Origin: Thermoanaerobaculia bacterium
GTDB taxonomy: Bacteria > Acidobacteriota > Thermoanaerobaculia > Thermoanaerobaculales > Sulfomarinibacteraceae
DNA: 64,000 nt
Direction: 5' to 3'
Assembly: GCA_027061805.1 (NCBI GenBank)
Contig: JAMOWA010000007.1
Span: forward strand, 1-64,000
Part shown: positions 49,985 to 63,034 of the stretch, one piece after another
Layout: every line of letters begins with the position of its first letter
How positions within the stretch are numbered: the stretch's first letter is position 1
Position numbers and translations under genes: made by a program
Notes under the pieces: model-generated
The model's input: the letters and a program-made list of their open reading frames with translations, nothing else
What the model was told of the DNA's origin: nothing
The model's database searches: none

Positions 49985-52900
49985 TCAGAATCTCCGGAGC
50001 ACCATCGGGCCACATCCCAGCAGGAGCAGCACCAGGACCACCGTCCCGAAACCACCCAGCATGGGGATGGGCACGCCCTGGATCATCACCACGGTGGGGT
50101 CGTCGTCGGGATCCGTGGCCGGGTCGTCCGAGACCACCTCCCGATCGCCCCCGAGGCTCAGGGTCGCCTGGTTGGCCACGCTCCCCTCGCCCGGGACCTC
50201 CGCGGGATGGGTGCGGGTCCGGAAGACCAGGGTGGAGCTCCCGCCCGCGGGCACGGGCGCCATGGAGACGTTGAGCGTCCCGGACACCACGTCGTAGCTG
50301 CCGGAATCTCCGTCCGCGTCATCGGTGAGCGGCACGCCATCCAGCACCATGCTCCCGGCAACGTAGCCCAGGCCCCGCGGGATCCGGTCCACCAGCGTTG
50401 CCGGGTCGGCGGCCAGGGTGCCGCTGTTGGTGGCGGTGATGGTCCAGGTCACCTCCTCGCCCGGCAGGAAGACCTCGCCGTTGGGCGGCGGGGAGGCCGT
50501 CTTCACCAGGTCCAGGTTGCTGTACAGCACCGTGGTGGTCTCGTCGTCGGTATCGTTGGACGGATCGGTGTCCCCGACCTCTCCCGAGACCGTGGCCGAG
50601 TTGGCCAGGGGACCCCGCTCGCCCCATGGCACCCCCACCACGATCTCCAGATCCTGCGAGCTGCCCGCGGGCACCGTACCCACGGTGCAGGTCACCGTCC
50701 CGCCGGCCTCCGTGCAGCCCGGCGACGCGGACACGAAGACGACCTGCGGCGGCAGGACGTCGGTGATGACGACGCCGGTGGCATCCGAGGGCCCTGCGTT
50801 GGCCACGTGGAGGATCCAGGTGAGCTCCTGACCCTCCTCCACCGGGTCCGGCGAATCGGTCTTGAGGAGGGCGAGGTCCACCTCGGCCAGCACCACGGTC
50901 GGCTCCGTGTCCGCGTCGTTGTCGGGCACGGGATCGGTGCCGTCGCCGCTGACGGTGACGGTGTTGGTCAGGGTGCCCGTGGCTGCCGGGTCCACCTCGG
51001 CCGTCAGCGTGATCCCCGCGGTCCCCGAGGGCGCAAGAACCCCCAGGGTGCAGGTGACCACGTTGCCCGCGGTGCTGCACGAGCCCTGGCTGGGTGTGGC
51101 GGACTGGAGCGTCACCCCCGAGGGCAACGTGTCCACCACCGTCACGCCCGTGGCGGTGGAGGGACCGTTGTTCACCACGGCAAGCGTGTAGGCAAGCCCC
51201 GTGCCCGCCACCACGGGATCGGGGAGGTCAGTCTTGGTCACGCCCAGGTCCGCGGTGGACACCAGCACGTCCACATCGGTGGAGGTGTTGTCGTCCGGAT
51301 CGGGGTCGACCATGCCCGGAGGCATTGTCACCGTGGCCGTGTTGACCAGGTCCCCGGTGGCGTCGGGGGCCACCGTGGACGTCACCGTGTAGGTGAGGGT
51401 GCCGCCCTGGGGGATGGAGACCACGTCGGTGATGTTCCCCGTCCCGCTGCCGCACGTGGCTCCGGCCGAGGCCACGCAGCTCCAGGAGGGGGCCAGCAGC
51501 GTGGCGGGGAAGACGTCCGTGACGGTGCCCCCCACCACGTCACCCGGGCCGGCATTGGCCACCACGATGGTGTAGGTGAGCGGCGTTCCGGGCACGGCGG
51601 TGGTGAGCCCGTCGTCCTTCACCACCGAGAGATCCGCCTCGGGGATGAAGTCCACCGTGGCATCGTCGGTATCATTGGTGGAATCCGTGTCCTGCGACGT
51701 GGTGGACACCGAGGCAGTGTTCACGATCGGGTCCACCCCCGCGTAGTCCGTGGGAACCTGGAAGCTGACCCCGACCGTGACGGCCGAACCTGCGGCCAGG
51801 TCTCCCAGGGTGCAGGGGAAGCCGCCGGTGCAGGGTGCCGAGGCCTCCACGAACACCAGGCCCGGCGGGGTGGTGTCGTCCAGCACCACGTCGAGCGCGC
51901 TTCCCGGCCCATGGTTGACCACGGTGAGGGCGAAGGTCAGGGTGCCGCCGGGGTAGGCCCGGGCCGGGCCGGCCTTCACCACGCCCACATCGGCCGCCGG
52001 GGCACCCAGGCCAGTGACCACTGCATCGTCGTTGTTGGTGGTGTCCGACTCGGGCTCGGTGCCGCTCACCACCACGCTGTTGGCCTGCGGCCCCGCCGCG
52101 GCCAGATCCACGTGGGCCGTGATCTCACAGGTGGCGGAGCTTCCCGCCGCAAGAGCACCGATGTTCCAGACCCCGTCCTGGAAGTCCCCTCCACAGGTGT
52201 CGGCGAGCCAGGTGACGTCACCGGGGAAGGTGTCGGTGGCCGCGACGCCCGTGGCATCACCCGGCCCCAGGTTGCTGACGGACACCGTGTAGACAATGTT
52301 GTCCCCCGGTGCGGCTGCCACCGGCCCCTGCTTGTCCACGGTGAGGTCCGTGGTCTCGGCCCCGATGGGCGTGGTCACGGTGCTGGAGTCGTTCCCCGGG
52401 TCGGTGTCGGCGGTGTCCGTGGACACCGTGGCCGTGTTGACGATCTGGGAGCCTCCGTGGCCCATCGGAACCTGGAAGGTCAGGCTCAGGTCCATCACGT
52501 CGCCGGGATCCAGGTCACCCAGCGTGCAGGGGAACCCAGCGGTGCATGGCGCCGAGGCCTCCACGAACACCAGGCCCGGCGGGGTGGTGTCGTCCAGCAC
52601 CACGTTCTCCGCCCCATCCGGACCGTTGTTGACCACGTGGAGGCCGTAGGTGACCGTGGAACCCACCGCCGCGGAGGGCGGGCCGGCCTTCAGCACGGCC
52701 ACGTCGCACTCCGGGACACGGTCCACCGCCGTGGCAGCGTCGTCCGCGTTGTCCTCCGGCCGCGGGTCCGGTGTGTCCGAGGACACCGAGGCCGTGTTGA
52801 GGATGGGGTCGGCCCCGGCGTAGTCCGCGGGCACGTGGTAGGTGACAGTGAGGCTCACCGACCCTCCCGCCGGGAGGTCACTCAGCGCGCAGGGAAACCC

Positions 52901-55900
52901 ACCGACACACGGTGCCGCGGCCGCCACGAAGACCAGGCCGCCCGGCGTGGGGTCGGACAGCACCACGTTCACCGCGTCCGACGGACCGGTATTGGTGACC
53001 ATGATGGTCTCGTCCAGGTCCGACCCGCGGGCCACCGTTGCCGGGCCCGTCTTGATCACCGCCAGGTCGGCCAGGGTGGTCACCGTGGTGTCCTCGCTGT
53101 CGCTGTCGTTGTCCGGTACGGGGTCCGTCTGGTCGGCAGTGACCGTGGCCGTGTTGCCGAGGGCCCCGGTGGTGCCGGGATCCACGGTGACCACGATGTG
53201 GAAGGTGACGGAATCGCCGTCGGCCAGGGTGGCCGTGGTGCAGGTCACCGTTCCCGAGCTCTCGGTGCAGGCCGGGTCCGCCGAGACAACGGAAACCCCC
53301 GCGGGCAGGACGTCGGTCACCGTCACGCCCGTGGCGTCAGAGGGACCGTTGTTGCTCACCTCCAGGGTCCAGGTGAGCTGTTCCCCCGCGCGGACGGGAT
53401 CCGGAGAGTCCGTCTTCACCACGGCCAGGTCGGCCTCCTCCACCACGGTGGTGTCCTCGGAGGCCGAGTCGTTGGCCGGAACCGGATCCGACTCGGAACC
53501 CGAGACGGCAGCCGTGTTGGTGTAGCTTCCGGCAGGGGTCCCCGAGGGGACGTCGCACACCACGGTGACCGTGGCGGCATCTCCCATGGCCAGGCTCCCC
53601 AGCGTGCAGGTGACCACGCCACCCGCGGCCGAGCAGCTGCCCTGGCCCGGCACCGCCGAGACGAAGGTGAACCCGGCAGGCAACGTGTCGGTGACCACGG
53701 CAGCGGGTTCCGTGGCCGGTCCGTTGTTCGTCACGACCAGCGTGTAGGTGACCTGCTCCCCCGCCCGGACCGGGTCGGGGGAATCCGACTTGGTGACGGC
53801 AAGGTCCGCGTGGACCAGGGTGTCGCTGTCGGTGGCCTCGTTGTTGCCCGGGTCGGGATCCTGCCCGTTGCTTCCGTCGTCCGCCGCCTGTGCGGTGTTG
53901 ACCACCGTGGCCTGGCCCGGCGGGGCGGGGTCGTCCACCAGGACCGCGAGCGTGCGCTGCACCGAGGTTCCCGCCGCAAGACCGAAGGCCGGCCAGGTGA
54001 CGATCCCACCGGACTCCGTCGCACCGTCCGAGGCGGAGACGAAGGACGTTCCCGGCGGCACGGTGTCGGTGAGAACCACGCCGGTGGCATTCTGGTTCCC
54101 CACGTTGGAGACCGTGAGCGTCCAGGTGACCGTGTCGCCCGGCCGCACCTCGGTCAGCCCATCGTCCTTGGCCACGGCGATGTCCGGGACGGCATCCAGG
54201 GGAACCACCGTCGGGTCGTCGTCGGCCGGGGTTCCCGGGTCGTCGGAGGGTTCCGCCGGCAACTGGTCGCAGTCGGCAGAGGCCCAGTTCACCAGCGTGT
54301 TCACGCCCGCCGCCACGGGGTCGGCCACCTGCACGTCGCAGGTGATGACCGCGGTGTTGCCACCGCCCGCGAAGGTGGCGTAGACCACCCTGATCGAGGT
54401 GTCTCCGGCCGTGTTGCCCGTGACCACCACGCCACCGCCCCCCGCCGTGACCGAACCGGTCACCAGGGTCAGGTTCGGATCGGTGATGGGATCGGTCACG
54501 GCAAGGCCCGTGGCTGTCCCCGGACCTGCGTTGCGCACCGAGATGCTGTACCGGAGCACATCACCTGGCGAGGGCGAGCCCGAGCCGTCCAGGTCTCCCC
54601 CGGGCGCGATGGACCAGCTCTTGTCAAGCTCGATGGAAGGCAGGAGGAGCTGGGCTGTGCCCTGCACGTCGGGCTCCTCCCGCTCGTCAGGATCGATCCC
54701 CGGAAGGGTGGTGGCCACGGTGTTGTCCGCGGTGTTGGTGAGCGTCGTGGCGGGAGGGTTGGCCCCGCCGGGCACCGCCGCGGTGAAGACGAGGACCACC
54801 GTCTCTCCGGGTTCCACCGAGGAATCCGGCGGCGAGGCGTTCGGATCCGAGGCCATGGTCACCGTGGCGTCGCCAGGCGCCCCCACGACCGAGAAGGTGA
54901 ATCCCACCGGCACGGAGACCGGCGAGATGCTGCCCGTGTCCCACATGGCGGCCGGCATGGCGTCACTCACCACCAGGTCGTAGGCCGGCGCGGTGCCCGT
55001 GTTGGCCAGCGCCACGGTGAGCGTGACCACGCCGTCCACGGGGCCCGCCATGGATTTGGTCACGGCCATGGCCGGTTCCACCACGTCCACGCTGGCATCG
55101 TCGTCCACCGGCCCACCCGTGGCATAGGCGAGCGTGCCGAAGTTCACCAGAGCCACACCGTCGGCATTGGCGGGCAGGTCCACGACACGGGCGGTGACCT
55201 CCAGGCGGATCCGGTCAGCCTCGTCCGCCACACCGTCCGCCGCGTTGGTGATGGTCCCGAAGTCGAAGGTCACGGTGTCGGCCAGGCCATCACCCAGGGC
55301 GTTGTCCGCAAAGACGGGCGTGCCCGGCAGGGAGGTGGTCAGGTTGGCCCCGATGGAGACCACCGTGGCCCCGATGGCCTCCAGCACGCCAGAGCCGTCG
55401 GCCTGCACGGCGTCGGTCACCACCGCACCCGAGGTGGTCCCCTCGGGAATCGCCACGGTGAGCTCGTAGGTGACCTGTTCGCCGATGGCAAGGTCCTCCC
55501 AGGCCGGATCGTGCTCGCCCGTGCCCGTGTCGCCCAGGCTGGTCACGCCCGTGATCTTCACCAGGGCCGGCGCGTTGATGGTGATGTCCGCGGTGTCCGT
55601 GTCCGTGACCGTCCGGTCGTCGGGACCGCCATCACCCGGGACCCCGGTGGGCAGGGTGTCCCAGCTCAGAAGGGCCGTGTTGCCGTAGCTCACGGAGGGC
55701 TCCACGGAGCCGTCCAGCTGGACGGTGTACTCGAAGATCACCGGGCTGTCGGCCAGGTCCAGCGTGCTCCAGGTGTAGGTCACCACCGAGGGCAGGCCCG
55801 AGGTGTCCTCCACGGGTGAAGGACCGCCCACCACGGTCAGTGAGCCCACCTGGTAGATCTCCTCGGGGGGGAGGAGGTCCGCCACGGTCACATCACAGGC

Positions 55901-58900
55901 CACTGCGGAGGAGGCCGCCGTGTGCTCCACGGTGATGCGGTAGGTGATCAGGTCACCGGCATCACCGAAGGGCGTGGCGGGATCCACCACCTCCTTGGTG
56001 ACCCGCAGCCGCGGTGCCGCCAGGTCCACGACGGCCGTGCCCAGCACGGGGTTGCCTCCCGTGTACAGGGTGGTGGCCGTGTTCACCAGGTCGTCCACCC
56101 CGCCCTGGTTCACCGGGACGTCGGGCACCACCGCCACCACCTCCACGGTGATGGTGTTGCTCCCCCCGACGCCGTTGGTGAGTGTTCCGAAGTCGAAGGT
56201 GACCCGTTCCGAATATCCATCGCCGTCGGGGTCGGTGGCCGTGCCCGTCGAGCCCACGCCCAGGCCCGTGCTCGAACCCATGTCCGGGTCCATGGCCGTG
56301 ATCCGTGAGCTCACCACACCCAGCAGCCCCGGGGCGGTGGGGAGATCATCCACGATCCGGGCGTCGGTGGTCGTGCCCTCGGGCATGGTGACGGTGATCT
56401 CGAAGGTCACCCGCTCGCCGATGGTGAGGTCCGGGTCGGGGTCGGTGCCCGTGCCCGTGGCGGGCACCGAGGTGGCGGTCACGGCCTTGGTCACGCCGGG
56501 CGCCGTGATGGTCACCTGGGCCTGGTCGGAGGCCGCACCGTCGCGCTCGTGGGGGTCGCCGTCGGCGGGGAGAGTGTCCCAGATGACCCCCGCCGTGTTG
56601 GTGATCACCTCCTCGGGCTGGACCGAGGAATCCAGGGTCACCTGGAAGGTGATCACCGTGGTCTCGCCGCGCAGGAACTCGTCCCACGCCGCGGCGATCA
56701 CGCCGCCCGATTCCGTGCAGCTGACGGGAACCACCGTTCCCCCGGTGCAGTCCAGGGAGCCGGCCACGTAGCTCATCCCGGCCGGGATGGTGTCGTCGAG
56801 GCCCAGGTCGAAGGCCTCGGCGGTGGAGGCGCCGGCGTGACGGAGGTCCAACGTGAAGGTGATCATGTCGCCGGCATCCCCCGTGGCGGGGCTGGCCGAC
56901 TTCTGCAGCGCGAGCACCGGTTCCACCAGCTCCACGTCCACCGTGGCGGAGGCCTGCAGACCGCTGCCGTACTGGAGGAGCGCCGTGTTGGTGAGCACGT
57001 GGCCGTCCGCGTTGGCGGGCACGTCCACGACCCTGGCCACGATCTCCACCACGATCCGGTCCCCGTCGTCCTCGACGCCATCCGGGTTGTTGACGGTGGG
57101 ACCGTAGTCGAAGACCACGGTGTCCTCGATCCCGTCCCCCAGGTTGAGATCGGATGTGGTGATGTCCGGCGGATCATTGGTGACCGCCAGGCTGCCCCCC
57201 ACGCTGACGGGCGTGGCCGATACCACCTGCAGCACGCCGGTGGCGTTGGCGGGCAGGCTGTCCGTGATCACGACCTGGGGGATGGTGCCCTCGGGCAGGG
57301 TGGCCGTGATGCGGTAGGTCACCGTCTCCCCGACCACCAGGTCCGTCAGCGACGTGTCGTGCTCTCCCGTACCCGTGGAGGCCTCCGAGGTGCTGGCCAC
57401 CACCTTGGTCAGGTCAGGGGAACGGACCGTCACCGTGGCCGTGTCCGCTGCAGCGTAGTCGTCCACCCCTCCGGAACCGTCACGCTCCGTGGAGTCCGCG
57501 TTGTGGACGGACCGCTGTCCCGGTGAGCCCGGCAGACTGGACCACACCATGGAGGCGGTGTTGGGGAGTTGCTGGTCGGGGTTCACCGACGGATCCACCA
57601 CCGCCTGGTAGGTGATCTGGCAGCTTGCGCCCACGGGAAAGGTGGACCAGGAGGCCGTGAGCGTGGGGGCCCCCGTGTCGTCCAGCACCGGGACCACGGT
57701 GCAGCTGCCGGCGGCAAGGCTTCCCGGCACGTAGGTCATGCCTGCGGGCACGGTGTCGCCGAGGAGCACGTCGTGGGCGTCCGCCCTGTCGGAACCCGCC
57801 GGGCCGGACACGGTGATCGTGTAGGTGATGGCGTCCCCGGCATCCGCCTCCGTGGGGGTCGCACTCTTGTCGATCATGATGGCCGGTTCCAGGATCCGGA
57901 CCACCGGGGCGGAGACCGCTCCCGTGGTCCCGCCCGTCCAGCTGAGCCGTGCCTCGTTGTTCCGGGCACCGCCCTCCTGGTTGATCACCTGGTCGAGGAC
58001 CACCGCACGGTAGACGATGGTGACAACCTCGTCCACGGTGTTGTCCCGGTTGGTGTTGACCACGTCTCCGAGGTCGAAGGTGACAAGTCCCCCGGAACCG
58101 TCCACGATCACGTTGGCGGGGTTCGTCCCGGTCCCGATGGGTGTTGCCACCGTCACGTCGGGGGACACCGTGAAGGCGAGCACGTCCACGAAGGCCAGCC
58201 CCCCGTCCAGGGTGTCCACGATGGCCGCGGCGGGCAGGGTGGCCTCGGGAACCCTGACCACCAGCTGGTAGATGACGTATTCCCCGATCACCGCATCGTC
58301 GGCGCCATTGGCCGCGTCCACGATCTCCGTACCCGCCAGGGTCTTTTCCAGCACCGGCGAGGCCAGTGTCGCGACGGCACTGTCCGTGAAGTCGGCGGGA
58401 TTGCCGGAGTCCACGTGGGACGGGCCGCCCTCCGTTCCTGCAAAGGACGTCACGCCACCACCGTTCACGAGGAGCGTCTCCGGCACCAGGGCCGGGTCGA
58501 AAATCTCCAGCTGGTAGGTGATGGTGAGGACGTTGGAGCCCGCCACCGGGTCATGGGGCTGGCAGAGTGGCTGGCCACCGCTGTCGTCCAGGAGCAGGCC
58601 GTCGCCGAAGAGGTCTCCATCGTTCCCCCCGGGACCCAGTGGAGTCCAGGTGGGGACGAACCCGTCGCCCCGCACGATGCTCAGATTCATCTGTGCCGGG
58701 TTGCTCCCGGGCATCCTCATCCCCGGGGGCATCACATCGTGGAGCGTGACATCGAATGCACCCGATCCGCCCTGGTTCTCGATGGTGATGGTGAAGGTCA
58801 GGAGATCGCCCACGTCCACACCGGACACGTCGGACCGGGCCAGGTCCGGGTCGGCATCGAGGTCCGACGAGGTGAGTGTTCCGGGACAGCCCCCTCCCGA

Positions 58901-61267
58901 CAGCGGCGGATCGAAGGTCTCGTCGGGGTTGTCCGTGTTGCAGACCCCCTTGCGGACCGCCAGGTACGGCTCCCGCAAGGTGAAGGGTACGGTGTCGTCG
59001 GTGGTGGCGTCCCCGCTGTTGGTGGAGCCCTCCTGGACCCGGACCAGGTTCACCAGCTGGAGGCCATCGGCAAAGGGCTCGTCGGTGACCGTGACCGTGA
59101 ACAGCAGGTCGATCACCGTGGCCGTGTCGCCCGTCGAATCGAAGTTCCCGAAATTCAGGATCACCGTGTTGGTCAGCGCATCGGTGGCAAGGGCCGGATC
59201 CAGGCCCGAGTAGGCATGGAAGGTGTCTCCCGGCCCGTACTTGACCGTCCCGGCAGGGGGGACCGTCCCGTCCACGGTGGAATCCAGCGTGGTCACCTCG
59301 GAGGCCTCGAAGACCGGCAACGGCAGGAAGTCCGTGACCACCAGGTTCTCGAAGTCCGAGGTGGCAAGGGCGTAGGAGATCCTGTAGGTCACGGTATCGC
59401 CAGGGGAGATCTCCAGCGGCGATGGCAGCGATGTGGAGCCGTTGACGGCGTAGAGCTCCTTGCTGACGGTGCCACGAGCAATCTCCACGGAGGCCGAGGA
59501 GTCGTCGGTGCAGGTCGAACCGGTCGGTGTGAGATCCACCGGATCCAGGAGCCTGCCGGCCACCGTCACCGTATCGCCGAGGACATCACCCTGATCCACC
59601 GAGGGATCTCCGGAGGGAAAGTCATCGGTGAATTCCTCCTGGATCACGGTCCGGAAATGCAGGACCGCCCTGGTCTGCCCCGAGGAGAAGACCGAACAGT
59701 CGGGATCGCCCCCCCCGGTGCCCCCGGGCGGAACACAGGCCCCCAGCAGGACCGCGCCGAGACCCTCGAGGACCATCTGATCGGAGACCCGGAACTCGAT
59801 CTCCTGGGTGCCATCCAGAGGCGGCACCTCGGGGGAACCTCCGGTGAAATGATCCATCACCGTGAAGTTCGTGGCATCGAAGGGCCCGGGACCGGTGGTG
59901 GCACCGTGCTCCCGGACCTCCAGTGTGGGGATGAAGGACGTGTCGAGGCGCTGGCCGTCCAGGACGATGTCGTTCACCACGAGCCCGTCGAAGGCCATCA
60001 CGTCGGAGACCTGGAACTCCAGTGTGTACTCCAGGACATCCCCGGGCGAGGGCCCTGCCGCTCCCCCGTCCACTGCCACTGTCACCGCCTTCTGGATGGG
60101 CAGGGTACGGGCCGTCAGGACAGATTCCGGACCCGGTGGATCGGCGGCGGCATTGTCCGTGCCTCCGGCGTCCCGGGGATCCACAGGATCCCAGTCCCCC
60201 AGGGCCGAGGCCTCGTTGGGGATCGGCGCAGAGGCGCAGGAGCCCGGAGGAATCACCGGCTGGCCCCCGGCATCCACCGGGGGCACGTACACTGCGACCG
60301 CCATCACCAGGTCGTCCTCCGAGGCGTCACCCGTGACTGGAGGAAAGCGGCGGGTGAGGGTTCCGCCAGGAACCGTGGTGCTCGGGGTGGAAACCGCGGT
60401 GGTGGACACCGGGTTGCCCTGGACGAGAGTCGCCTCCACGGCAACGAACTGAAGAGTGCCTGGCAGGATGTCGCTGAGCTCCAGATTCTCCATGGTCTGC
60501 CCGTCCGCCAGGTCCACCACCACACGGAAGGACCTGGGATAGGCGGGGCCCACCGTGCCTTCCGCCTCCTCGCCGAGGGTACCGGGGGTGAGGTAGATCT
60601 TGGACAGCCGCATGAGCACCGGGACCGTGGCCGCGCCGGGCCACGAGCCGCTGTCCGGGGTGGAGGGATCGGCTATGACGAGGTCACAGCAGGGGTTGTC
60701 CAGGGGGTCGGCGCCGTACTGAAACCCCCCGCGAGCATGGACGGCCAGCGGGTGTCCCGCGTCTGCCAGCTGCGACATGGAGGCCACCACCTCGACCGTC
60801 ACGGTGGGCTGCTGGGGAACCACGGATCCGAAGGGCAGGCGCAGGACCACCAGGACATCGCCCGTGGTTCCGCAGACCTGGAGCGGCTGATGGGCAGAAT
60901 CCACCGCGAAGGGGTGGTCCACGCAGCCAAGACCGCCGCCGTCATCCGGAAAAGCGAGGACAGTGGTGGCCAGCGGAACGCCGAGGTGGGTGGCGCTCAC
61001 GAAAGAGAGTCCGTCTGGAGTGTCCGTCCCCGCCGCACCGTCAGCCCCGTTGAGGGGCAGAACCAGGTCAATCCATGGTCCATAGCCGGGAGCATCACCC
61101 GCGTTGTCGAAGGTGAGGGTGAACCGGACCTGTTCGCCCAGCATGGATTCCGCCGGCACGTCCAGCGCCACCGAGGGTACCGGTGCGGCGCCGGCAGACA
61201 CCGCCAGCGTCAGGGCAATCACGGGGGCCAGAACGAAGAGTGGGTGTGGATGGCGTTTCCGTTGCAT
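49985..61267 (-). CDS. Giant exported DUF11-repeat surface protein with IPTL-like C-terminal sorting tail
   Basis: 3760 aa from ATG 61267 (GGAGG upstream). Signal peptide: FVLAPVIALTLAVSAGAAP. Three zones follow: an N-terminal zone of diverse Ig-like domains (about 25-970), four super-repeats of about 310 residues (about 970-2210) and twelve DUF11 units of about 120 residues (about 2210-3727, for example ADLAVTKSDSPDPVRAGEQV). The tail reads VPIPMLGGFGTVVLVLLLLG then LRRF, which resembles IPTL/PEP-CTERM sorting signals: Pro-containing motif, hydrophobic helix, Arg pair. The super-repeats resemble isopeptide-forming fimbrial D2-type domains, though bond-forming Lys/Asn pairs were not verified. 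The protein is acidic and very Asp/Thr/Val/Gly-rich. It is probably a fibrous surface adhesin or stalk. It diverges from the toroid protein gene at 61766. Confidence 0.9.
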   Translation of the reverse strand: MQRKRHPHPLFVLAPVIALTLAVSAGAAPVPSVALDVPAESMLGEQVRFTLTFDNAGDAPGYGPWIDLVLPLNGADGAAGTDTPDGLSFVSATHLGVPLATTVLAFPDDGGGLGCVDHPFAVDSAHQPLQVCGTTGDVLVVLRLPFGSVVPQQPTVTVEVVASMSQLADAGHPLAVHARGGFQYGADPLDNPCCDLVIADPSTPDSGSWPGAATVPVLMRLSKIYLTPGTLGEEAEGTVGPAYPRSFRVVVDLADGQTMENLELSDILPGTLQFVAVEATLVQGNPVSTTAVSTPSTTVPGGTLTRRFPPVTGDASEDDLVMAVAVYVPPVDAGGQPVIPPGSCASAPIPNEASALGDWDPVDPRDAGGTDNAAADPPGPESVLTARTLPIQKAVTVAVDGGAAGPSPGDVLEYTLEFQVSDVMAFDGLVVNDIVLDGQRLDTSFIPTLEVREHGATTGPGPFDATNFTVMDHFTGGSPEVPPLDGTQEIEFRVSDQMVLEGLGAVLLGACVPPGGTGGGDPDCSVFSSGQTRAVLHFRTVIQEEFTDDFPSGDPSVDQGDVLGDTVTVAGRLLDPVDLTPTGSTCTDDSSASVEIARGTVSKELYAVNGSTSLPSPLEISPGDTVTYRISYALATSDFENLVVTDFLPLPVFEASEVTTLDSTVDGTVPPAGTVKYGPGDTFHAYSGLDPALATDALTNTVILNFGNFDSTGDTATVIDLLFTVTVTDEPFADGLQLVNLVRVQEGSTNSGDATTDDTVPFTLREPYLAVRKGVCNTDNPDETFDPPLSGGGCPGTLTSSDLDADPDLARSDVSGVDVGDLLTFTITIENQGGSGAFDVTLHDVMPPGMRMPGSNPAQMNLSIVRGDGFVPTWTPLGPGGNDGDLFGDGLLLDDSGGQPLCQPHDPVAGSNVLTITYQLEIFDPALVPETLLVNGGGVTSFAGTEGGPSHVDSGNPADFTDSAVATLASPVLEKTLAGTEIVDAANGADDAVIGEYVIYQLVVRVPEATLPAAAIVDTLDGGLAFVDVLAFTVSPDVTVATPIGTGTNPANVIVDGSGGLVTFDLGDVVNTNRDNTVDEVVTIVYRAVVLDQVINQEGGARNNEARLSWTGGTTGAVSAPVVRILEPAIMIDKSATPTEADAGDAITYTITVSGPAGSDRADAHDVLLGDTVPAGMTYVPGSLAAGSCTVVPVLDDTGAPTLTASWSTFPVGASCQITYQAVVDPSVNPDQQLPNTASMVWSSLPGSPGQRSVHNADSTERDGSGGVDDYAAADTATVTVRSPDLTKVVASTSEASTGTGEHDTSLTDLVVGETVTYRITATLPEGTIPQVVITDSLPANATGVLQVVSATPVSVGGSLAVTNDPPDITTSDLNLGDGIEDTVVFDYGPTVNNPDGVEDDGDRIVVEIVARVVDVPANADGHVLTNTALLQYGSGLQASATVDVELVEPVLALQKSASPATGDAGDMITFTLDLRHAGASTAEAFDLGLDDTIPAGMSYVAGSLDCTGGTVVPVSCTESGGVIAAAWDEFLRGETTVITFQVTLDSSVQPEEVITNTAGVIWDTLPADGDPHERDGAASDQAQVTITAPGVTKAVTATSVPATGTGTDPDPDLTIGERVTFEITVTMPEGTTTDARIVDDLPTAPGLLGVVSSRITAMDPDMGSSTGLGVGSTGTATDPDGDGYSERVTFDFGTLTNGVGGSNTITVEVVAVVPDVPVNQGGVDDLVNTATTLYTGGNPVLGTAVVDLAAPRLRVTKEVVDPATPFGDAGDLITYRITVEHTAASSAVACDVTVADLLPPEEIYQVGSLTVVGGPSPVEDTSGLPSVVTYTWSTLDLADSPVIFEYTVQLDGSVEPSVSYGNTALLSWDTLPTGVPGDGGPDDRTVTDTDTADITINAPALVKITGVTSLGDTGTGEHDPAWEDLAIGEQVTYELTVAIPEGTTSGAVVTDAVQADGSGVLEAIGATVVSIGANLTTSLPGTPVFADNALGDGLADTVTFDFGTITNAADGVADEADRIRLEVTARVVDLPANADGVALVNFGTLAYATGGPVDDDASVDVVEPAMAVTKSMAGPVDGVVTLTVALANTGTAPAYDLVVSDAMPAAMWDTGSISPVSVPVGFTFSVVGAPGDATVTMASDPNASPPDSSVEPGETVVLVFTAAVPGGANPPATTLTNTADNTVATTLPGIDPDEREEPDVQGTAQLLLPSIELDKSWSIAPGGDLDGSGSPSPGDVLRYSISVRNAGPGTATGLAVTDPITDPNLTLVTGSVTAGGGGVVVTGNTAGDTSIRVVYATFAGGGNTAVITCDVQVADPVAAGVNTLVNWASADCDQLPAEPSDDPGTPADDDPTVVPLDAVPDIAVAKDDGLTEVRPGDTVTWTLTVSNVGNQNATGVVLTDTVPPGTSFVSASDGATESGGIVTWPAFGLAAGTSVQRTLAVLVDDPAPPGQATVVNTAQAADDGSNGQDPDPGNNEATDSDTLVHADLAVTKSDSPDPVRAGEQVTYTLVVTNNGPATEPAAVVTDTLPAGFTFVSAVPGQGSCSAAGGVVTCTLGSLAMGDAATVTVVCDVPSGTPAGSYTNTAAVSGSESDPVPANDSASEDTTVVEEADLAVVKTDSPDPVRAGEQLTWTLEVSNNGPSDATGVTVTDVLPAGVSVVSADPACTESSGTVTCTTATLADGDSVTFHIVVTVDPGTTGALGNTATVTADQTDPVPDNDSDSEDTTVTTLADLAVIKTGPATVARGSDLDETIMVTNTGPSDAVNVVLSDPTPGGLVFVAAAAPCVGGFPCALSDLPAGGSVSLTVTYHVPADYAGADPILNTASVSSDTPDPRPEDNADDAATAVDRVPECDVAVLKAGPPSAAVGSTVTYGLHVVNNGPDGAENVVLDDTTPPGLVFVEASAPCTAGFPCTLGDLDPGDVMDLSLTFQVPMGHGGSQIVNTATVSTDTADTDPGNDSSTVTTPIGAETTDLTVDKQGPVAAAPGDNIVYTVSVSNLGPGDATGVAATDTFPGDVTWLADTCGGDFQDGVWNIGALAAGSSATCEITAHVDLAAAGPQANSVVVSGTEPESDTTNNDDAVVTGLGAPAADVGVVKAGPARAYPGGTLTFALTVVNHGPGSALDVVLDDTTPPGLVFVEASAPCTGGFPCTLGDLAAGSAVTVGVSFQVPTDYAGVDPIVNTASVSTTSQDTDSTNDTDDATVDFIPEADLSVVKDDGLTTAVPGTPLTYTIVVANAGPGDVVGGTVTDVFPATLLAPSWSCVASAGATCGSGTGNITDVVSIPQGGTLTYTVTSTVAPDATGDLVNTATVTMPPGMVDPDPDDNTSTDVDVLVSTADLGVTKTDLPDPVVAGTGLAYTLAVVNNGPSTATGVTVVDTLPSGVTLQSATPSQGSCSTAGNVVTCTLGVLAPSGTAGITLTAEVDPAATGTLTNTVTVSGDGTDPVPDNDADTEPTVVLAEVDLALLKTDSPDPVEEGQELTWILHVANAGPSDATGVVITDVLPPQVVFVSASPGCTEAGGTVTCTVGTVPAGSSQDLEIVVGVPWGERGPLANSATVSGEVGDTDPSNDTDDETTTVLYSNLDLVKTASPPPNGEVFLPGEEVTWTITATNSGTLAADPATLVDRIPRGLGYVAGSMVLDGVPLTDDADGDSGSYDVVSGTLNVSMAPVPAGGSSTLVFRTRTHPAEVPGEGSVANQATLSLGGDREVVSDDPATDPDDDPTVVMIQGVPIPMLGGFGTVVLVLLLLGCGPMVLRRF
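50090..54640 (-). repeat. Twelve DUF11 units in the giant gene
   Basis: Units of about 120 codons share the frame ADLxVxKxDxPDPVxAGxxx, an NNGPSDATGV-type turn, DTxPPGLxFV and a closing NTAxVxxxxxDPxxxND. Two units share a 55-bp identical block (51837-51891 and 52551-52605), pointing to recent duplication or gene conversion. Confidence 0.8.
54641..58365 (-). repeat. Four super-repeats of about 310 codons in the giant gene
   Basis: Each unit has two sub-domains: one starting PxLxKxxxxTS..TGTGEHD with IGExVTYxxTVxxPEGT, and one starting EPxxxxxKSxxPxxGDAGD with a WDTLP-type motif near its end. Copies have diverged more than the DUF11 units. Confidence 0.75.
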
Positions 61268-61765
61268 GCTGCCTCCAGCAGATGGACTGAATCCGCAAGT
61301 TATCCCGGGGAAATCACAGAGCAGAATCCCGAGATCACGAATCTCTCCTGGCAAGAAACCTGCCAGCCATGGCACCGCTTCCGGGCCACATACCTCCAGG
61401 TGAAACGTCTCACCATGGAACACCTGTTCCAATGTGATGCGTTCGACACGGAACGGCCGGACCGGATCCCCGGGACCCTCTGTCACACGAGCCGGGATTG
61501 CTCCTGGGATCTTCTCGCCCTCCTGGCCATCACCGGTGCCACCAGGCACCCGGAGACGACACCCTCACCACCCCGGCAACCCGAGACGCGGTTGATCCCG
61601 CCACGGGGAAGTCCACCTGGTGACCGGGACCGGCGGAGGCCGGATACCATCTCCACTGGTCTCACTGGCCGCCTGCCACGGGCCCGGCAGGTCTCTCGAT
61701 CTCGATGTGTGATAGATGTGATAGAGTCGATGTACTGCGGGGAGTGCCATGAATGGAGGTGTGCC
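61268..61765. other. Divergent control region between the giant gene and the toroid gene
   Basis: About 500 bp without a credible gene. It must carry both promoters; no convincing -35/-10 pair was found. The side next to the toroid gene has the tandem TGTGATAGA repeat described separately. A riboswitch was considered; none recognised. Confidence 0.5.
61708..61725 (+). promoter_or_regulatory. Tandem TGTGATAGA direct repeat upstream of the toroid gene
   Basis: Two perfect 9-bp units abut, 40 bp before the start codon, in an AT-richer patch that includes GATGTACT. The spacing of about one helical turn per unit suits a dimeric activator. Role inferred. Confidence 0.35.
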
Positions 61766-63034
61766 ATGACCAGTCGTCGCAGGTTTTCCGGCCTCATGAT
61801 CGGCGGTGCCTTCCTCGGGCTGACTGTTCCAGGCCTTGTTCTCGCCGGTGGTACCCGGTTCGTGGTGACACCCTTCGATGGCTCCTCCGTCCCCGTCCGG
61901 ACCGTGAACCCTGGTCCCGTGTTCACCGTTCCTCATGCACCGGCCATCCGTCCCCAGGAGCTGGTCCCCATTCTCCAGGCGGGCGCTGACCACGTGGTGG
62001 CCCAGCAGTGTGCGGACGGGGGGTTCGGCTGGCCCCACGACGACTGCAGCACCACCTACCACAACATCACGGCGCCCATCCTCATGGGAGTGCTCAACGC
62101 CCACCGCTACACCATGGATCCGGCGCACCTGGCCGCCGCCGTGACCGGTGGCGATTTCGAGGTGGCCTACCAGTGGAGCAACGGGGAGCCCCGCTTCGGC
62201 ACCCAGACACCCCGCCTCCTCCAGGTGCTCTCCACACGATCCGGTGACCCCTCGTACGCCGAACACGCGGCCCAGTACTTCTTCGACACGCTCCAGGCGG
62301 GAACCTACGGCCCCAGTGACTGGGACACTGCAGGCTACATCGCCGCCATCTTCGCCTACCGGACGGGGGCGCTGGTGAACCTGCGGCCGTGGGAGTTCTG
62401 CACCCTTGTGACCGCCGCAGAGGCCAGGGGGAACCCGGGACAGGCCGACAGCTTCGCCCAGGCGGCGCTCGACGGCCTCGCGAGCCTCGACAATTCCGAT
62501 CCCGGCACCGTGTACTCGGACATCATCGGCCTGGCGGGTGGAATCATGGCACTGTCCCGGACCGGGTGGACCACCTTCCCGGCCATCTCCGCCCCGCTGC
62601 ACTCCGGCGTCAATGGGATCGATTCCCTGGCCGGCCTCGTTGGCCTGCTGCTCACCTATCAGAACGACGATGGCTCGTGGAACTGGCACTCGAACCTGGC
62701 CGTCCCGGATCTGAGCGACAAGGACCTCCAGACCACCGCCTACGCCATCCTGGCGCTGGTGTCCGCGGAGCCCCTGGTCGCGGGCAGCCAGGCTCCGGCC
62801 ATCCTCTCGGCCCGGGACTGGCTCGCCTCCATGCAACTCCCCGGCGGGGGGTTCCCGGAGTACCCCGGCGGGAACGAGAACACCGGGGTGGAGGGGGAGG
62901 TCCTCTGGGCCCTGGGGGCCAGCATGGACTTCAATGCCCTGCCAGTCCCGGCACTGGAGCGACCTGGCCTGGCGCTCCTGGGAGTCCTGCTTGCGCTGGC
63001 GGGAATCGCCGTGCGCCGGAAGACGCTCGCCTGA
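61766..63034 (+). CDS. Tat-exported alpha/alpha-toroid (prenyltransferase/squalene-cyclase-like) protein with sorting-like tail
   Basis: 422 aa from ATG 61766 with a GGAGG site. The N-terminus has a twin-arginine signal (SRRRFSGLMIGGAFLGL). The body has helical repeats with turns GGFGWPHDDC, NDDGSWNWHS and LPGGGFPEYPG, the QW-like repeats of alpha/alpha toroids related to terpene cyclases. The catalytic DxDD motif of cyclases is not evident, so an enzymatic role is uncertain. The C-terminus reads LPVPALERPGLALLGVLLAL then AGIAVRRKTLA, a motif-helix-basic tail like that of the divergent giant protein. It is probably exposed on the surface or retained in the envelope after sorting. Confidence 0.75.
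   Translation: MTSRRRFSGLMIGGAFLGLTVPGLVLAGGTRFVVTPFDGSSVPVRTVNPGPVFTVPHAPAIRPQELVPILQAGADHVVAQQCADGGFGWPHDDCSTTYHNITAPILMGVLNAHRYTMDPAHLAAAVTGGDFEVAYQWSNGEPRFGTQTPRLLQVLSTRSGDPSYAEHAAQYFFDTLQAGTYGPSDWDTAGYIAAIFAYRTGALVNLRPWEFCTLVTAAEARGNPGQADSFAQAALDGLASLDNSDPGTVYSDIIGLAGGIMALSRTGWTTFPAISAPLHSGVNGIDSLAGLVGLLLTYQNDDGSWNWHSNLAVPDLSDKDLQTTAYAILALVSAEPLVAGSQAPAILSARDWLASMQLPGGGFPEYPGGNENTGVEGEVLWALGASMDFNALPVPALERPGLALLGVLLALAGIAVRRKTLA

Follow-up and report, generated by a model that had tools for sequence, protein, structure and literature searches.

Two divergent genes in the window (the whole stretch of DNA analysed, 64,000 nucleotides) encode exported proteins that, judging from their sequences, are very probably substrates of the single exosortase of this genome, XrtH. 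One is a giant secreted DUF11-repeat protein of 3760 aa (49985..61267, minus strand). The other, 498 bp away, is an exported protein of 422 aa with a predicted alpha/alpha-toroid fold (61766..63034, plus strand), referred to here as the toroid. Both have an N-terminal signal peptide, judged by eye, and a tripartite C-terminal tail consisting of [IV]P-x-L-x3-G, a hydrophobic helix and RR, which reaches the stop codon. An earlier note had pointed to similar tails on this divergent exported pair, and both the reading frames and the tails were found as it described them.

DUF11-type repeats make up nearly the entire length of the giant. PF01345 (DUF11) matched it with 878 bits over 16 stretches and TIGR01451 with 543 bits over 18 stretches, and the isopeptide-forming domain TIGR04226 was found in 10 stretches. 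The reading frame is open from 61549, and the likely start is the ATG at 61267 (MQRKRHPHPLFVLAPVIALTLAVSAGAAP), which begins a signal peptide of the Sec type (MQRKRHPHPLFVLAPVIALTLAVSAGAA; 61184..61267, minus strand, end approximate, judged by eye). In fibrillar adhesins, DUF11 domains build stalks that are locked by isopeptide bonds (PMC12617251). By analogy, the giant probably serves as the stalk of a fibrillar adhesin, and an adhesin role and a surface location are probable for it.

The two tails differ in how they score against the curated IPTL models. The tail of the toroid (PVPALERPGLALLGVLLALAGIAVRRKTLA-stop; 62942..63034, plus strand; the protein terminates in VPALERPGLALLGVLLALAGIAVRRKTLA-stop) passes PF18203 with 22.1 bits in a genome scan and 23.5 bits on the tail alone (cut-off 20.8), and TIGR04174 with 24.3 bits on the tail alone (cut-off 20.5); when the whole protein was scanned the scores were 17.0 and 18.0 bits, under the cut-offs. 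It was the only true tail found when the genome was searched with PF18203. Two further PF18203 matches, on contigs C68 and C59, were rejected since they are not C-terminal. The tail of the giant (VPIPMLGGFGTVVLVLLLLGCGPMVLRRF-stop; 49985..50074, minus strand) gave no match to PF18203 or TIGR04174. Because it is matched by a lineage profile only, we did not file the giant as a member of the curated family, and describe its tail as one that would work like IPTL-CTERM.

The lineage profile is an HMM of 25 IPTL tails from other genomes of the class, none of them from the genome of the window. Across the whole genome it gave five matches, namely the toroid, the giant (13.8 bits, with an E-value of only 0.30), a protein encoded on contig C36, plus two partial matches on C5 and C64, which were rejected as tails since they are not C-terminal. 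We also ranked 805 C-termini, obtained by translating 102 kb of this genome in six frames and keeping every open reading frame of 60 aa or more. The three highest ranks went to the toroid (E 7.6e-6), the C36 protein (6.1e-4) and the giant (8.5e-4), and the next-best C-terminus had an E-value of 0.096. The C36 protein (L086:9143-10726) is 527 aa long and has DUF11 repeats, a signal peptide and the tail PIPLLSRTGGALMLLLLGTAALILLRRAT. A second profile that included the tails of this genome revealed no fourth protein, its sole extra match being weak and partial (E 1.8). The gene adjoining that of the third tail protein on C36 encodes a tricorn-like protease (L086:10951-14385).

The C-terminal helices could simply anchor the proteins in the membrane, with RR as the stop-transfer end, and stay uncut by any enzyme. 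Hydrophobic helices with arginines after them are indeed common anchors, and the giant tail fails the curated models. However, when the tails were shuffled so as to keep the anchor composition and the tripartite plan, the real score was reached in 0 of 5000 shuffles for the giant, 2 of 5000 for the toroid and 3 of 5000 for the third protein. The likeness of the tails exceeds chance. The same tail is also present on a third protein, and the genome encodes XrtH and its partner gene, which would otherwise be left with no detected substrate. We therefore regard plain anchoring as very unlikely. Judged from the tails and from the known XrtH-IPTL pairing, processing by a rhombosortase or sortase in place of XrtH is very improbable. 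The GG that precedes the helix in the giant tail does recall GlyGly-CTERM tails, but no GlyGly or LPXTG model matched any of the tails above cut-off, the toroid tail scores above the cut-off of an IPTL model, and the partner enzyme of IPTL tails is XrtH. The third tail reached 18.6 bits (cut-off 30) against a streptococcal-type LAETG model, through its helix.

XrtH, the reading preferred here as the sorting enzyme, is the only exosortase-family protein in the genome and lies on contig C40 (TIGR04177, 115.5 bits, E 4e-33, cut-off 86). Beside its gene, and overlapping it, is one for the XrtH-associated membrane protein NF041730 (37.6 bits, cut-off 35). The exosortase active-site residues Cys98, Arg139 and His158 recur unchanged in each of 30 related loci, several entries among which represent one genome taken from two collections, and the NF041730 gene stands beside XrtH in nearly all of the 30. 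The EpsH-type exosortase with eight transmembrane segments (TIGR02602) had no match in the genome. Directly upstream of xrtH and on the same strand is a TPR/serine-threonine kinase gene (L085:9578-12301), with which xrtH may be cotranscribed. The earlier note had expected an exosortase-type enzyme elsewhere in the genome and further proteins with this tail. XrtH on C40 and one such protein on C36 were found, and the proposal thus withstands the check that its author had set for it.

The distribution of enzyme and tail over related genomes agrees with this pairing. XrtH was found in 49 of 60 relatives (30 of 33 genera), and 50 of 60 gave IPTL matches; those relatives that are named belong to the Acidobacteriota, Thermoanaerobaculales among them. 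The two occur together (47/2/3/8 for both, XrtH only, IPTL only and neither; Fisher p 2.6e-6), with the figures being raw match counts and the relatives treated as independent despite their kinship. Genomes without XrtH, such as those of genus g22, mostly have no IPTL tails either, and of the IPTL matches in genomes lacking XrtH at least one (L064) plainly does not form a C-terminal tail. Two XrtH-family matches each were present in G040, G041, G053 and G059, where more than one sorting enzyme may be active. In another relative an IPTL motif and helix are internal to an open frame (L037; G013:C32:16166-16249), and after them comes a cytochrome-like stretch containing CxxCH motifs, an arrangement that resembles the NCBIfam family 'midcut-by-XrtH' (NF033207). 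The open literature that we searched holds very little on XrtH/IPTL and almost nothing on exosortases in this lineage; the single paper to mention an IPTL-CTERM tail places it on the S-layer protein of Methylomirabilis lanthanidiphila (PMC8671808).

By analogy with the exosortase family, the observed tails, enzyme, conserved catalytic residues, partner gene and co-distribution over genomes suggest the following route. The giant would be exported through Sec and the toroid through Sec or Tat, each by means of its N-terminal signal peptide, and in both the C-terminal helix with its RR stop-transfer end would keep the protein in the inner membrane. XrtH would then cut at [IV]P-x-L-x3-G through its Cys98/Arg139/His158 centre, join an acceptor to the cut protein and deliver it to the envelope or the cell surface. 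There the giant would serve as a DUF11 stalk and the toroid as a surface-held alpha/alpha-toroid protein. Three points count against sorting by XrtH: the giant tail is missed by the curated models, the detectable substrates number just three, and xrtH lies on a contig other than that of the window, with no operon link to either the giant or the toroid.

The toroid gene starts at the ATG at 61766 (MTSRRRFSGLMIGGAFLGLTVPGLVLAGG), and the signal peptide (61766..61849, plus strand, end approximate, judged by eye) has a Tat-like SRRRF n-region. On its own the protein sequence gave just weak matches to squalene-cyclase models. An AlphaFold2 model built with six orthologs is all-helical and of moderate confidence (pLDDT 63, pTM 0.68). 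Using this model in Foldseek, the best solved neighbours were squalene-hopene cyclases and GH105/GH88 toroids, and the sequence profile also matched drimenyl-diphosphate synthase (E 1e-9). These matches point to a terpene-cyclase/GH105-like fold, so that the label 'toroid' in the earlier note is right as the name of a fold. Because the model is of only moderate confidence, the active site was left unassigned.

The six orthologs (G002, G004, G009, G010, G014 and G040) are 48-60% identical to the window protein. Those in G009, G004 and G040 keep IPTL tails despite differing surrounding C-terminal sequence. None of the six has a twin-arginine motif, and their signal peptides look like Sec signals; the SRRRF n-region occurs only in the window toroid. 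The earlier note had contrasted Sec for the giant with Tat for the toroid. Given SRRRF and the presence of TatC in the genome, this one protein may be exported through Tat, but the trait is not conserved, and because the twin arginine is missing in all six orthologs we limit the Tat reading to the window toroid.

The earlier note had further suggested that the giant and the toroid are two parts of a single surface structure with a common sorting route. In favour of this, the two genes are adjacent and divergent, their products share a tail type, and just three tails of this type were found genome-wide, two of them on this pair. However, among the six orthologs no DUF11 giant lies beside the toroid gene at any readable flank, and a conserved toroid-giant gene pair was rejected on this ground. 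The contig of the G004 ortholog begins just upstream of the gene. The neighbour in G009 is a large FN3/lamin-tail protein, and housekeeping genes are found in other genomes. Because the neighbourhood is not conserved, what speaks for one structure is adjacency and tail type, and we judge a joint structure unlikely; this part of the earlier proposal was not supported. The G009 neighbour (L078:3-2963) is secreted and divergent to the toroid gene, and is cut by the contig end.

The other three orthologs, from genus g3, have in place of the IPTL tail ends such as VDGFESGGLSLWGNVVP. These conform to [IL]F-x-DGFE[ST]G[DN]T-x2-W-(x0-6)-stop, a form noted at L080:1853-3043, L081:10344-11534, L082:10473-11663, L081:3679-4767 and L117-L156 and carried by many unrelated exported proteins, among them plastocyanin-like and CAP-domain proteins. 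A DNA pattern for DGFE[STC]G gave 80 to 91 sites each in G002, G014, G040 and G058, about 40 to 60 in several other genomes, 0 to 2 in most and none in the genome of the window; a reversed-pattern control gave 0 or 1. Genomes counted as rich in the tail are G001, G002, G003, G006, G010, G012, G014, G016, G040, G058 and G262, while G000, G004, G013 and G015 have none. Of 42 distinct sites retrieved from three rich genomes, 39 lie at most 12 residues from the stop, all with F-x-DGFE[ST]G-x4-W. Within a phylum-wide sample, genomes rich in this tail occurred only in this class. The tail has no name in NCBIfam or Pfam, and none of the open papers searched for DGFESG, FESGDT and GFESGN prints it. 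That members of one protein family carry different tails is an argument that was used for earlier sorting signals (PMC3237569). The secreted toroid appears to carry either an XrtH/IPTL tail or the helix-less F-x-DGFE[ST]G-x4-W, and from these patterns we lean slightly towards the latter, which is patchy in its distribution, being an undescribed signal for sorting or secretion, served by machinery of its own. We rate it a more novel lead than the XrtH pair, although it lies outside the genome of the window.

These results turn a guess made by eye into a concrete enzyme-substrate prediction of one XrtH and three substrates. With so few substrates, a genome of this kind would be a tractable test bed. 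The curated IPTL models miss two of the three likely lineage tails here, and the swap to DGFE[ST]G-x4-W may point to a sorting route not yet described.

Several known systems can be compared with the one predicted here. The giant resembles the DUF11/CLIPPER fibrillar adhesins (PMC12617251) in being very long and secreted, in its tandem DUF11-type domains, partly isopeptide-forming, and in its C-terminal sorting tail; unlike them it has no recognised separate adhesion domain, and its anchor would be of the XrtH type. The predicted fold of the toroid is like that of squalene-hopene cyclases and the GH105/GH88 alpha/alpha-toroids, at 12-17% identity, and no activity is assigned to it. A combined literature search on Tat signals, exosortases and PEP-CTERM found nothing. 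In Haloferax, an exosortase relative, ArtA, is reported to have both Sec and Tat substrates, according to the title of a reference cited in PMC11980579, as may be the case here; the ArtA/PGF-CTERM system is archaeal and differs in its motif and enzyme subfamily. The PEP-CTERM/EpsH system differs in that this genome has no TIGR02602 match and its tails have no PEP motif. Compared with the usual IPTLxxWG, the T and W are missing (VPALERPG, IPMLGGFG, IPLLSRTG), and unlike curated IPTL-CTERM proteins the giant and third tails score below the models, with only three substrates found. The XrtH (TIGR04177)/IPTL-CTERM (TIGR04174, PF18203)/NF041730 system itself has already been described, and the window pair illustrates it well without being unusual: the enzyme, the partner gene and the toroid tail fit the curated models, and the catalytic Cys, Arg and His of the XrtH family are conserved in the enzyme of this genome.
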